This document shows positions 9,695 through 48,119 of a stretch of 62,604 bases of DNA, in pieces. The position numbers and the translations under genes were made by a program. Numbering within the stretch: the first letter of the stretch is position 1; each line of letters opens with the position of its first letter. This stretch comes from Pirellula staleyi DSM 6068 (lineage in GTDB: Bacteria; Planctomycetota; Planctomycetia; Pirellulales; Pirellulaceae): the NCBI GenBank assembly GCA_945900945.1, contig CAMDKL010000012.1:1-62604 (forward strand), read 5' to 3'. The notes beneath the pieces were generated by a model that did not search any database, was not told the DNA's origin, and saw nothing but the letters and a program-made list of their open reading frames with translations.

Positions 9695-10771
9695 ATGAAA
9701 ATACGCGAACAACTCGAGCAAACCTTAACTCGATTTAACGAACTCGAAGCAATGATGTCCGACCAGGCAATCTTGTCTGGCGATTCGTCTAAAATGGCCA
9801 GTATTATGCGAGAACATGGTGGGCTACTCAAAGTTGCAACCATGTTTCGCAACTACGAGCGCATGGCCGCAGAACTAAAGGAGCTGGCTCCGATGCTTGC
9901 ATCGGCAGATCCGGACGAAAACGCCATGGCTCTCGAGGAGTCCACTCGATTGAAGGAGGAGCGCCAAGAGATATGGAACGGATTGCTCGACATGAGCATC
10001 GGCGGTGAGGATGCCGCTCGTACCCGATGTGTGCTTGAAATCCGAGCTGGAACCGGCGGCGAGGAAGCGGCCTTGTTCGCCCGCGATTTGTACTCCATGT
10101 ACAAACACCATGCCGACGCCAAGGGTTGGAAAGTCGAAATCATGGACTCCAGCACCACAGAACGAGGCGGCTTCAAAGAAATCATCCTCGGCTTCGAGGG
10201 GGAAGGGGTCTTTCGTGAATTGCAGTTCGAAAGCGGTGGCCACCGAGTTCAACGCGTCCCCGAAACCGAAGCACAAGGACGCATCCATACTTCTGCTGCT
10301 ACGGTTGCAGTCATGGCTGAACCCGAGGACATCGAAATCGATCTAAAAAAGGAAGACTACCGCGTCGATAAATTTTGCGCGTCTGGACCTGGAGGTCAGC
10401 ACGTTAATAAAACCGAATCCGCAATCCGACTAACTCATTACGAAACCGGGGTGGTCGTCCAATGCCAGGACGAAAAAAGCCAGCTTAAGAATCTGGCAAG
10501 AGCCCTACGCGTTCTCAAAACACGCCTCTACGAAGCCAAACGTGAAGCAGAGTTGAAACAGCGATCCAACGAACGCATGTCCCTCATCGGGTCCGGGGAC
10601 CGCAGCGAGCGCATTCGGACCTACAATTTCCCGCAGAACCGACTCACAGACCATCGTATCAACTTGACTTTGTACAAACTCGATCAAATCGTAGCAGGTG
10701 ACTTGCAACCCGTTTCCGACGCACTGATCGAATACGAACGTTCGACCCTGAGAGACGACACCGACGCATAA
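9695..10771 (+). CDS. prfA: Peptide chain release factor 1
   Basis: RF1 recognises UAA and UAG in the ribosomal A site and triggers peptide release. The protein begins [14 protein letters not shown]; the ATG at 9695 is preferred to the TTG at 9668, which lies inside the rpmE terminator. The N-terminal helical domain is followed by the RF core ([20 protein letters not shown] region) and the catalytic loop [13 protein letters not shown] near residue 231, whose GGQ motif is essential and is the target of PrmC methylation. Length (358 residues) is normal. Its methyltransferase gene prmC follows about 100 bases downstream, separated by two repeat units. Confidence 0.97.
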
Positions 10772-10832
10772 TGTTTAACCCGCGCAGCGGCTTGTGCAAC
10801 AATGTTTAACCCGCGCAGTGGCTGGCGCAACT
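10771..10832. repeat. Two tandem 31-bp copies of the GTTTAACCCGCGCAGCGG element
   Basis: Positions 10771-10801 and 10802-10832 are two 31-base copies that begin ATGTTTAACCCGCGCAG and differ at a few later positions. They fill most of the 99-base spacer between prfA and prmC. The same motif recurs, in either orientation, near 11872-11946 and 16185-16202, and inside the DUF1501 gene at 46854-46895. Confidence 0.85.
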
Positions 10833-11786: not shown

Positions 11787-11888
11787 GATGTTTAGCCGAC
11801 CTTGATGTTTAGCCGACCTTGATGTTTAGCCGACCTTGATGTTTAACCGACCTTGATGTTTAACCGACCTTGATGTTTAACCGGCGCA
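11787..11888. repeat. Six tandem copies of a 17-bp unit
   Basis: The unit is GATGTTTAGCCGACCTT (three copies, 11787-11837), then GATGTTTAACCGACCTT (two copies, 11838-11871), then a sixth that starts GATGTTTAACCGG and merges into a longer element at 11872-11946. The head ATGTTTAACC equals the head of the 31-base repeat between prfA and prmC, so this looks like tandem amplification of a truncated element. Positions with A/G variation fall in blocks, which suggests stepwise expansion. Confidence 0.9.
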
Positions 11889-11946
11889 GCCGCGGGAACC
11901 CAATTCCACAATCGCCAACTCGGCCCCTCCGCTTCGCGGGTTAAAC
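11872..11946. repeat. Inverted pair of the GTTTAACC...CAGC element upstream of glyS
   Basis: A plus-oriented copy (GTTTAACCGGCGCAGCCGCGG, from 11875) and a minus-oriented copy (CCGCTTCGCGGGTTAAAC, 11929-11946) face each other about 30 bases apart. RNA from this region could fold into a long hairpin in the leader of glyS. The element belongs to the same dispersed family as 10771-10832. Confidence 0.7.
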
Positions 11947-16184: not shown

Positions 16185-16202
16185 CCGCTGCGCGGCTTAA
16201 AC
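16185..16202. repeat. Dispersed GTTTAA..CGCGCAGCGG element, single copy
   Basis: CCGCTGCGCGGCTTAAAC is the reverse complement of the element seen between prfA and prmC, with one change (GGGTT to GGCTT). It sits 16 bases beyond the stop codon of the downstream acyl-CoA dehydrogenase gene. Confidence 0.7.
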
Positions 16203-16217: not shown

Positions 16218-17330
16218 CTACAAAATCAGTTTGGCGATCTGCTCTCGCTGCCACGTGGCATTGCCGAAGAGAAACTCGCAAACCTTGATGCGTTTCAGGA
16301 AGAGATGCAAGTCGTGCTCCCACGTAAAGCCGATGCCGCCGTGGACTTGCACGCCACGGTGCGCAACCTCGCGACCGGCGTCGGAGCAATAAGCCTTTGC
16401 GATCGCAACTGCCTTGTTGCCGTCGGGTGCGTTCACCGTGAGAGCCCATGCGGCATAATAGGTTGCCGCGCGTGCGCTCTCGGTCATTAGCAGCATATCC
16501 GCACACTGATGCTGCACGGCTTGATACGAACCAATCGTTCGATCAAACTGCTTGCGAGTTTTGGCGTAGTCGAGAGTTGCCTCACGAATCCATTGCATCG
16601 CGCCAAGCATCTCAGCACAGGTGGCAAGTGTCGCCACTCGAGTAGCGTATTCGAGAGCCTCGCGTGCTTGGTCGCCCACGGCGACAATGTCTTTTTGCGA
16701 TAGTGAAACGGCGTCGAATGAGACGTCGAACAGCTTATGCGTCGCATCCAGACTTCGTGTCTCGGTACAGTGGACACCAGAGGATGTCGTCGATACCAAT
16801 ACGACGGCAAGCTCCAAGCCTTGCCGCACCACGCACAATAGGATGTCCACCTCAGCCGCGTCGAGCACGAGTGTTTTGCGTCCAGTCAGCTGCCAGCCTG
16901 CTGGCGTTGGCTTCAATTGTGTCTGAACATGTTCGATGTCCCAATCGCTATTTTGGTCCATTAAAGCAACCGTCGCTTTGAGCGAGCCTGCAGTAATCGA
17001 TTGCAGAGTCGATGCGTGTTCGGAGTTGGCGGCCTGGTCCAAGAGTGTGGCGGCCCAGGTCGTCGCTAAAAACGGACATGGCAAACACGCGCGGCCCATC
17101 TCTTCGGCCACCACCGCAAGTTCGACAAGGCCGAGTCCCAATCCACCGCAGCTTTCGTCGAGATTCAGGCCGACCCAACCTTGATCGGTAATAATTTGCC
17201 AAAGTGACTCATCATGGATGGCGTCGCTGGCCATCCTTTCGCGGACGCGTTCTAGTGGATAATTTTGCGTTAGGGTCGCTCGAGCCGTTTCACGCAAAAG
17301 CTTTTGTGGTTTGGAGAGATCGAATTCCAT
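16218..17330 (-). CDS. Acyl-CoA dehydrogenase, shorter subunit-like paralog
   Basis: This FAD enzyme family oxidises acyl-CoA to enoyl-CoA and passes electrons to ETF. The 370-residue protein has the N-terminal helical domain (WVGLNLDESCGGLGLGLVEL) and the C-terminal helical domain (FDRTIGSYQAVQHQCADML; VQVHGGIGFTWEHDLHLFLK). It lacks the TSEIQR-type C-terminal motif of its neighbour and diverges in the middle domain. It starts 21 bases after the other dehydrogenase gene. Such unequal adjacent pairs form alpha2beta2 heterotetramers in actinobacterial steroid catabolism, so a joint enzyme is possible here (inference). The substrate is unknown. Confidence 0.88.
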   Translation of the reverse strand: MEFDLSKPQKLLRETARATLTQNYPLERVRERMASDAIHDESLWQIITDQGWVGLNLDESCGGLGLGLVELAVVAEEMGRACLPCPFLATTWAATLLDQAANSEHASTLQSITAGSLKATVALMDQNSDWDIEHVQTQLKPTPAGWQLTGRKTLVLDAAEVDILLCVVRQGLELAVVLVSTTSSGVHCTETRSLDATHKLFDVSFDAVSLSQKDIVAVGDQAREALEYATRVATLATCAEMLGAMQWIREATLDYAKTRKQFDRTIGSYQAVQHQCADMLLMTESARAATYYAAWALTVNAPDGNKAVAIAKAYCSDAGREVAHRGVQVHGGIGFTWEHDLHLFLKRIKVCEFLFGNATWQREQIAKLIL

Positions 17331-46745: not shown

Positions 46746-48119
46746 ATGACTGTTTATTATGATCACTTGCTTCGCAATTCGCTTCCGTCGCGACGCGACG
46801 TGATCCGAGCTGGTGGATTGACCGCGCTGGGATTGTCGATGTTTAGCGGCACGCCGCTGCGCGGGTTAAACGAGACGCCGCTGCGCGGGTTAAACGTGCA
46901 GCCGTTGCGAGCCGTTCAACCAGGCGTTGGGAAGGCCAAGTCGTGCATCTTGTTGTGGTTGAACGGTGGTCCCAGCCACCTTGAAACGTTCGACATGAAG
47001 CCCAACGCACCGAGCGAAGTCCGAGGGCCGTTCCAGCCGATCAAAACCAACGTGCCTGGAATCGAAATCTCCGAGTTGCTCACCAGCACCGCCAAGATAG
47101 CCGACAAGATCGCGATTATCCGGTCGGTAACATCGCCGTTGGGGGAACATGGACTGGCGAATCACTTCATGTTGACCGGTTACAAACCCTCTCCGGCGCT
47201 TGAGTATCCAAGCTACGGCGCGGTTTTGGCGCATGTGCGTGGCGGGGCTCACACGCTGCCTCCCAATGTATCCGTTCCGAACGACGCATATACGGCAGGT
47301 GCGGGGTATCTCGGTGCCGAGAGCAGCCCGTTTGCTGTAGGAGGCGATCCAGCCAAGCCGGATTTCCGAGTGCGAGATTTGGACTTCTACGCTGGAGTCA
47401 CTGTGGGCCGCTTGGAGCGTCGCCGAGCCTACTTGAGTCAGCTGGAGCGGTTTCAGCAAGCGAGCGAGAGCCCGTTAAGCGAGCCCGATCCGGGATTCGA
47501 ACAAGCGTACCGACTGGTCACTTCGCCGGACGCTAAGAAGGCTTTCGATCTATCTCAGGAATCGGACGCCACACGAGCGCGGTACGGCAGTCGCACCTTC
47601 GGGCAAAGTTGTTTGCTTGCCAAGCGATTGGTCGAGCAGGGAGTTCCGTTCGTCACAGTCAATTACACCGGCTGGGACACTCACGAAAACCTCGTTGTGC
47701 AGCTCAAGGAAGGCTACACAGGAGCAAAGGTCGGAGTCGGGCTTGTGCCCACATTTGATCAGGCTTTTGCGGCCTTGATCAACGACTTGAGCGCATCTGG
47801 CAAGTTGGATGAGACGTTGGTGATTGCGATGGGCGAGTTTGGACGAACTCCCAAGCTGAACATGCGCGGCGGTCGCGATCATTGGCCTCGGGTCTTCAGT
47901 GTGGTCATGGCGGGTGGCGGCGTACGCGGTGGACAAGTGATTGGTAGCAGTGACAGTATTGGTGAAAGCCCCAAAGATCGGCCCGTTACACCCTACGAGC
48001 TGGCTTATACGATTTACGAGTTGCTAGGGGTCGATCCCAACAGCGATTTGCACACTGCCGACGGTCGTCCAGTTCAAATCAACCAAGGTGGAAAAACAAT
48101 TAGTGAGTTGATCGTATGA
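46746..48119 (+). CDS. DUF1501 protein, Tat-exported, with in-frame repeat insertion
   Basis: This sulfatase/alkaline-phosphatase-fold family member has a twin-arginine signal (SRRDVIRAGGLTALGLSMF, Arg16-Arg17). The mature domain shows CILLWLNGGPSHLETFDMKP, SPLGEHGLANHFMLTGYKPS, NYTGWDTHENLVVQLKEG and VIAMGEFGRTPKLNMRGGRD. Length (457) is normal. Between the signal and the domain (codons about 35-58) lie TPLRGLN, TPLRGLN and QPLRAVQ at an exact 24-base period. The first two are encoded by copies of the dispersed CCGCTGCGCGGGTTAAAC element at 46854-46871 and 46878-46895. The stop overlaps the start of the WD40 gene (ATGA). Confidence 0.92.
   Translation: MTVYYDHLLRNSLPSRRDVIRAGGLTALGLSMFSGTPLRGLNETPLRGLNVQPLRAVQPGVGKAKSCILLWLNGGPSHLETFDMKPNAPSEVRGPFQPIKTNVPGIEISELLTSTAKIADKIAIIRSVTSPLGEHGLANHFMLTGYKPSPALEYPSYGAVLAHVRGGAHTLPPNVSVPNDAYTAGAGYLGAESSPFAVGGDPAKPDFRVRDLDFYAGVTVGRLERRRAYLSQLERFQQASESPLSEPDPGFEQAYRLVTSPDAKKAFDLSQESDATRARYGSRTFGQSCLLAKRLVEQGVPFVTVNYTGWDTHENLVVQLKEGYTGAKVGVGLVPTFDQAFAALINDLSASGKLDETLVIAMGEFGRTPKLNMRGGRDHWPRVFSVVMAGGGVRGGQVIGSSDSIGESPKDRPVTPYELAYTIYELLGVDPNSDLHTADGRPVQINQGGKTISELIV
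46854..46919. repeat. In-frame copies of the dispersed GTTTAACCCGCGCAGCGG element
   Basis: Two perfect copies of CCGCTGCGCGGGTTAAAC (46854-46871 and 46878-46895) and one degenerate copy (from 46902) follow each other at a 24-base period within the DUF1501 reading frame. The element is otherwise intergenic in this window. It falls in the linker just after the Tat signal, where extra residues are likely tolerated. Confidence 0.85.

Follow-up and report, generated by a model that had tools for sequence, protein, structure and literature searches.

A REP-type repeat with a GTTTAAC foot is probably inserted in frame in the linker of a DUF1501 protein of Pirellula staleyi

Introduction

How does a sequence that lies between genes come to be read as protein? 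In a 62,604-nt stretch of DNA from Pirellula staleyi DSM 6068 (assembly GCA_945900945.1, contig CAMDKL010000012.1; hereafter the window), an 18-mer found in several intergenic spacers also occurs inside the gene of a DUF1501 protein. The initial annotation described a dispersed element that had expanded in frame within this gene, and compared it with the palindromic elements of Rickettsia, for which in-frame insertion into genes is the usual placement.

REPs of the GTAG and CGTC kinds are reported from Planctomycetes, R. baltica by name, in the text of Di Nocera et al. (2013; PMC3733652), together with many R. baltica tyrosine transposase genes that have flanking repeats. The same text describes intragenic REPs, lying inside ORFs, and GTAG REPs that can supply the stop codons of upstream ORFs. 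It treats RPE-4 and RPE-6 of Rickettsia conorii as intragenic CGTC-tagged REPs, and reports no association of CGTC repeats with transposase genes. According to the text of PMC6006769, class 3 TnpAY1 transposases of Planctomycetes, Acidobacteria and Proteobacteria use a CnGA foot and have the motif Y----Q.

Results

Repeat copies in the window and in the DUF1501 gene

The window contained seven matches to the 18-mer at up to three mismatches, two of them exact and in frame and five elsewhere, against 0.07 expected from shuffled sequence (Table 1). The intergenic copies lie where the initial annotation had placed them. The tandem of GATGTTTARCCGACCTT units joins the A-type REP, as though the REP foot alone had been amplified. 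Rfam searches of the window at gathering thresholds returned no match, and ARAGORN found no tRNA.

Table 1. Features of the window that bear on the repeat (positions in the 62,604-nt stretch)
Positions	Strand	Feature	Basis or remark
10773..10790	+	L-type REP, intergenic, 1 nt past the TAA stop of the ORF ending at 10771	
10804..10821	+	second L-type REP, intergenic, direct orientation, 31 nt on	
11788..11880	+	tandem 17-nt units GATGTTTARCCGACCTT, continuing into the next REP	read from sequence
11875..11892	+	A-type REP core, GTTTAAC-CGGC-GCA-GCCG	compensated stem
11929..11946	-	L-type REP core, partner of the A-type core in a REPIN-like pair that faces outward and measures 72 nt	
16185..16202	-	L-type REP, intergenic; an ORF ends 15 nt away, at 16218	one mismatch
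46746..48119	+	DUF1501 protein gene with in-frame copies, 457 aa	ORF, translation, Pfam PF07394
46788..46838	+	twin-arginine-type signal SRRDVIRAGGLTALGLS (SRRDVIRAGG...)	by eye from the translation, no signal predictor
46851..46898	+	48-nt gain, two 24-nt units, TPLRGLNE TPLRGLNV	unseen in ortholog N-termini; RR-to-C distance
46854..46871	-	L-type REP core, exact copy, minus-strand foot GTTTAAC	
46878..46895	-	the other exact copy of the L-type REP core	
46902..46919	-	alleged third, degenerate copy, 10/18 identical	probably native

In the DUF1501 protein, the Pfam domain PF07394 covers residues 64-456 (E 7.4e-104). It is preceded by a twin-arginine-type signal, which we take to be a Tat signal from its motif. 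The two exact copies stand between signal and domain, in frame and with a period of 24 nt, just as first described, and the inserted residues lie in the TPLRGLNETPLRGLNV region. The third, degenerate copy that had been counted with them did not hold up. At least the same agreement with the 18-mer is reached at 0.5% of the window's plus-strand positions, and if this stretch were taken as inserted as well, the RR-to-C distance would fall to 27 residues. Because this undercuts every measured ortholog, we judge the stretch to be probably native sequence.

The RR-to-C distance is 51 residues in this protein and 33-55 in the 33 orthologs in which it could be measured (12 of the 45 ortholog loci yielded no distance). 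A clean gain of two 24-nt units is expected to leave 35 residues once its 16 residues are subtracted. The distances in the six best-scoring orthologs, L168-L173 (64-67% identical), were 35, 37, 37, 35, 37 and 35, and the best-scoring, L168, equals the expectation. PLRGLN was absent from the N-termini of all 45 ortholog loci, of which L043 and L193 stop short of the linker. The comparison with orthologs proposed at the outset therefore came out as predicted, with the extra length matching the two units. The best ortholog in it is 67% identical, and since ortholog linkers span 33-55 residues, length by itself is no proof of insertion.

Nine other direct pairs of copies less than 50 nt apart had spacings of 31, 24, 25, 22, 37, 46, 46, 33 and 28 nt, only two of which are divisible by three. 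The 24-nt period in the DUF1501 gene keeps the frame, and other spacings are rarely multiples of three, which is weakly in line with selection for frame.

Copy number and anatomy of the repeat

A search of the whole genome (6.47 Mb in 313 contigs) found 88 copies of the 18-mer at up to two mismatches, 31 of them exact, whereas the reversed-pattern control gave 0. Both the predicted genomic excess and the picture of an amplified, dispersed element that is also read as protein, in its two in-frame units, were borne out. Any match to the 18-mer was found in 10 of 59 relatives, with one to four per genome, mostly at two mismatches, and exact only in G009. With so few matches, the amplification of this 18-mer is private to the species among the genomes searched. 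For closer analysis we used 60 stretches, 58 around copies and two around Y1 genes, which together with the window held 99 copies at up to three mismatches; copies with at least three mismatches beyond these stretches, such as those at C49:6826 and C80:23215, were left unclassified.

From the foot onwards the L end runs GTTTAAC-CCGC-GCA-GCGG, commonly with TGCGACTT/C in front, and the stem of the A type (Table 1) is compensated relative to it. A second, facing end reads GTTTAAC-CGATCGAGGC-CCTAAA-GCCTCGATCG and forms a 10-bp hairpin; it has 28 genomic copies at up to three mismatches (control: 0), and a composite of such copies folds as a DNA hairpin at z -4.1 relative to shuffles. An L end and a second end make up units of 143-145 nt, which are in tandem in contigs C22, C213 and C116. 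Copies stand singly, as short direct repeats or as outward-facing pairs.

The analysed stretches contained 145 exact GTTTAAC feet against 33.5 expected by base composition, and in 97 of the 145 the foot was followed by a perfect stem 4 bp or longer (shuffles: mean 9.1, maximum 15). Among 104 copies at up to four mismatches, each foot position was conserved in 96-103, and stem pair 2 was C-G in 73 and G-C in 24. Loop positions 1 and 3 were G and A, respectively, in 99 of the 104 each, while position 2 varied (C in 68, A in 17, G in 10, T in 9), so that 94 copies had a G-N-A loop. DNA mini-hairpins of the form C(GNA)G are unusually stable. In isolation neither the L end nor the A type nor the DUF1501 stretch folded better than shuffles (z -0.07, -0.75 and -0.45, respectively), and the case for their hairpin stands on the substitution pattern and the stem excess.

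Placement relative to genes

The 99 copies form 68 clusters. A copy lay wholly inside a called gene in five clusters and in none of the other 63, which at a coding fraction of 0.80 has a binomial probability of 2e-38, with genes called by a home-made codon score rather than a standard gene finder. Of the clusters, 35 had the 3' end of a gene no more than 60 nt away, and 14 had a 5' end at such a distance.

In-frame placement was backed by homology in two of the 68 clusters, the DUF1501 linker and the C-terminus of a NirA-family reductase. In-frame copies thus exist, as first proposed, but they are the exception. In the reductase gene (L113, C63:6526, minus strand), the REP copy rewrites the C-terminal tail in frame, before an overlapping next gene; the protein ends in ...FADFSQRCDSFNPHSGWPILVATNSSNVQMERNQP, compared with ...FADFSKTADWLSLLSEQRTGVMN in the 67% identical ortholog L211. 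Two other in-gene clusters, C14:30069 and C233:2374, were set aside on inspection by eye, without a family search, as their ORFs look spurious. At L164 (C185:1076-1186), a frame that is truncated at its 5' end and presumably PH-domain-like lies directly against a complete REP pair; this is a possible gene disruption and ambiguous as an in-gene case.

In four further clusters the GTTTAA or GGTTAA of the repeat supplies the stop codon of the upstream ORF. A TAA stop is provided by the REP copy at L154 (C17:19781), L156 (C40:31478), L138 (C74:28787) and L116 (C87:7537).

A RAYT-like transposase gene between the same repeats

Contig C116 carries an ORF for a transposase of 203 residues (L121:1926-2537, minus strand) with the same repeats on both sides; one of the flanking feet reads GTTTAGC. 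The protein matched the NCBIfam model REP_Tyr_transpos (NF047646) at E 9.2e-9 and 35.3 bits, below the 80-bit cut-off, and no Pfam model matched. A profile search of the PDB gave weak matches to IS200-type transposases (E 0.006) and to TnpAREP 4er8 (E 0.31); the single-sequence search gave one match only, which was unrelated (E 0.41).

Matches to this type of transposase at E <=1e-3 occurred in 33 of 199 family genomes and 20 of 68 genera, its own genome included. We aligned 23 family members including the C116 protein, having left out 8 of 31 loci, three for an internal stop (L198, L201, L202) and five by choice (L203, L255, L260, L261, L262). All 23 matched REP_Tyr_transpos, 21 matched IS200 and 20 matched Pfam Y1_Tnp (E <=0.01). 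Residues H105, H107, Y170, V171 and N174 were invariant and P175 was conserved in at least 90%. Most members have threonine between the two histidines, so that the hydrophobic U of HUH is not kept. The invariant H and Y residues sit where the text of PMC6006769 places the HUH and Y motifs of TnpAY1.

The repeat foot accompanies these genes. Around 31 transposase genes, including that of C116 (the counts leave aside L204-L207, L209, L263, L264 and those matches that have no locus), the 18.0 kb lying no further than 300 nt from the gene contain 126 GTTTAAC feet, or 7.0 per kb, and the 43.5 kb beyond 700 nt contain nine, or 0.21 per kb; the density near the genes is thus 34 times higher. A foot within 300 nt was found at 24 of the 31 loci, on both sides at 21, and at seven there was none. 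The shape near many of the homologous genes is GTTTAAC-NNNNN-GCC-GNA-GGC-G. A perfect, uninterrupted 4-bp stem followed 19 of 150 feet around homologs, compared with 14.9 in shuffles, and any hairpin there would therefore have an interrupted stem.

The repeat across the family

Of 199 family genomes, 61 contained the pattern GTTTAACNNNNNGCCGNAGGCG in exact form, with a maximum of 411 copies in G072, whereas the reversed control gave at most one per genome. Relatives G072, G125, G021, G114, G234, G064 and G076 contained 208 to 411 exact copies each. The genome studied here has just one, so its L, A and second-end types form a separate set. In the congener G021 (293 copies), plus/minus pairs 42-44 nt apart stood at 9 of 21 sites inspected and are REPINs in form. 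None of its first 30 copies, from these 21 sites, lay in an ORF of more than 300 nt with coding support on both sides.

At least 10 copies of GTTTAACNNNNNGCCGNAGGCG were present in 14 of the 25 genomes that have a strong transposase match and in 14 of the 173 that do not (p 7.6e-8 at an odds ratio of 14.5, with kinship of the genomes ignored). The limits used (10 copies, E 1e-10) were chosen after the lists were known, and genomes with weak matches, such as G023 and G064, were counted as having no transposase. That 14 REP-rich genomes have no strong transposase match speaks against a strict one-to-one link, although gaps in the assemblies, loss or divergence may account for them.

Discussion

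We consider it highly probable that the 18-mer forms the core of a mobile repeat of the REP type, which was inserted in the DUF1501 linker and was most likely spread by the RAYT-like transposase of C116. The alternatives were weighed against the same data. The heptads could be an ordinary repeat of DUF1501-family proteins, arisen by slippage in the linker and unrelated to the intergenic repeats. Ortholog linkers do differ in length, and some have short repeats of their own (SPCMASPCMA in L195), but both units are base-identical to a dispersed core, of which the genome has 31 exact copies, PLRGLN is missing from the ortholog loci, two of which end before the linker, and slippage leaves 86 other copies at up to two mismatches unaccounted for; we regard this origin as extremely improbable. 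The repeats could also be attC sites of a chromosomal integron, whose boxes are R'' = RYYYAAC and R' = GTTRRRY, and the GTTTAAC...GTTAAAC of outward-facing copies fits them. The genome has eight partial matches to the integron integrase model, the best at E 7.7e-46 and all below cut-off; matches of this kind, again below cut-off, occurred in 14 of 14 control genomes as well. Many copies, however, stand alone or have the direct orientation, the three integrase-like loci inspected of the eight (L295-L297 on C194, C273 and C52) have a total of one GTTTAAC foot, and the foot accompanies Y1 transposase genes at 24 of 31 loci. On these data we hold an integron to be very improbable.

A Rickettsia-type palindromic element selected for in-frame protein insertion, the kinship suggested by the initial annotation, could draw on a core that is open in four of six reading frames and on the two homology-backed genes that have it as coding sequence. 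Yet 66 of the 68 clusters are without such placement, none of the G021 copies inspected has coding support on both sides, and the anatomy and the linked transposase are of the REP-system type. With a foot and hairpin, outward-facing pairs and a flanked Y1/HUH transposase gene, the element belongs with REP/REPIN-RAYT systems, and we find the Rickettsia reading very unlikely. A REP-type element moved by another Y1 transposase of the genome is a different matter: there are eleven PF01797 matches, the C116 gene is not among them, and its protein diverges from the RAYT model. However, these 11 loci have only zero to two exact feet each (in 2.0-3.3 kb), compared with six within 500 nt of the C116 gene, so that another mover seems unlikely.

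Under the favoured reading, a REP-type repeat spread by the C116 transposase, the GTTTAAC foot and the small hairpin (4-bp stem, mostly G-N-A loop) would be the unit that this protein recognises. The enzyme, encoded between the same ends, would most likely spread the repeats as single-stranded DNA; that it moves them is suggested by the linkage and by its family. In the DUF1501 linker, either one unit would have entered and then been duplicated or two would have entered, and the insertion would have survived through a linker, between export signal and enzyme domain, that tolerates a change of length. We infer that the insertion is neutral and that the protein with it is made.

The system resembles the GTAG REP/REPIN and RAYT (TnpAREP) systems, as presented in the text of PMC3733652 and PMC6006769, in its short hairpin with a 5' foot, its high copy number and its mostly extragenic copies. 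It also shares with them the frequent position near gene 3' ends, the single, paired or tandem arrangement, the supply of stop codons, the occasional in-frame copy and the Y1-type transposase gene between copies. It differs in the foot, which is GTTTAAC rather than GTAG or GTGG both in its own copies and in the flanks of homologous transposase genes, in the mostly G-N-A loop, and in a transposase clade with H[VT]H and YVxxN(P), of which the C116 protein falls below the REP_Tyr_transpos cut-off. Like the CGTC REPs in the text of PMC3733652 it is short and palindromic with some copies in frame in genes, but the foot is another and the linkage to a transposase is strong. With class 3 TnpAY1, going by the text of PMC6006769, it has in common the occurrence in Planctomycetes, the atypical structures beside the gene and the high-copy repeats; GTTTAAC and YVxxN(P) stand in place of CnGA and Y----Q. 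The likeness to Rickettsia palindromic elements is the in-frame presence in protein genes, and the repeats here are unlike them in being overwhelmingly intergenic, short and transposase-linked, with gene placement backed by homology in two of 68 clusters.

The initial annotation knew of no such elements in planctomycetes. For REPs in general this does not stand, as planctomycete and in-frame REPs are already known (PMC3733652). As for the foot, our literature search, which covered text outside figures and supplements (among these the R. baltica consensus of PMC3733652), found no paper that pairs GTTTAAC with REPs, and the foot looks like an undescribed one. We lean towards the view that GTTTAAC REPs are a third superfamily beside GTAG and CGTC, with a RAYT clade of their own that recognises a G-N-A triloop, with as many as hundreds of copies per genome throughout one planctomycete family, and with the DUF1501 gene as a rare protein case.

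The REP systems in the literature used here are mostly proteobacterial with a GTAG foot, to which GTTTAAC is a natural contrast. A recurring foot with its own transposase clade would offer a route to how RAYTs pick foot and hairpin, and to the co-evolution of repeat and transposase. That the G-N-A loop is fixed except for its middle base makes a sharp and testable prediction on the DNA shape that is recognised. The DUF1501 gene would be a case of a repeat turned protein in the linker of an exported protein.
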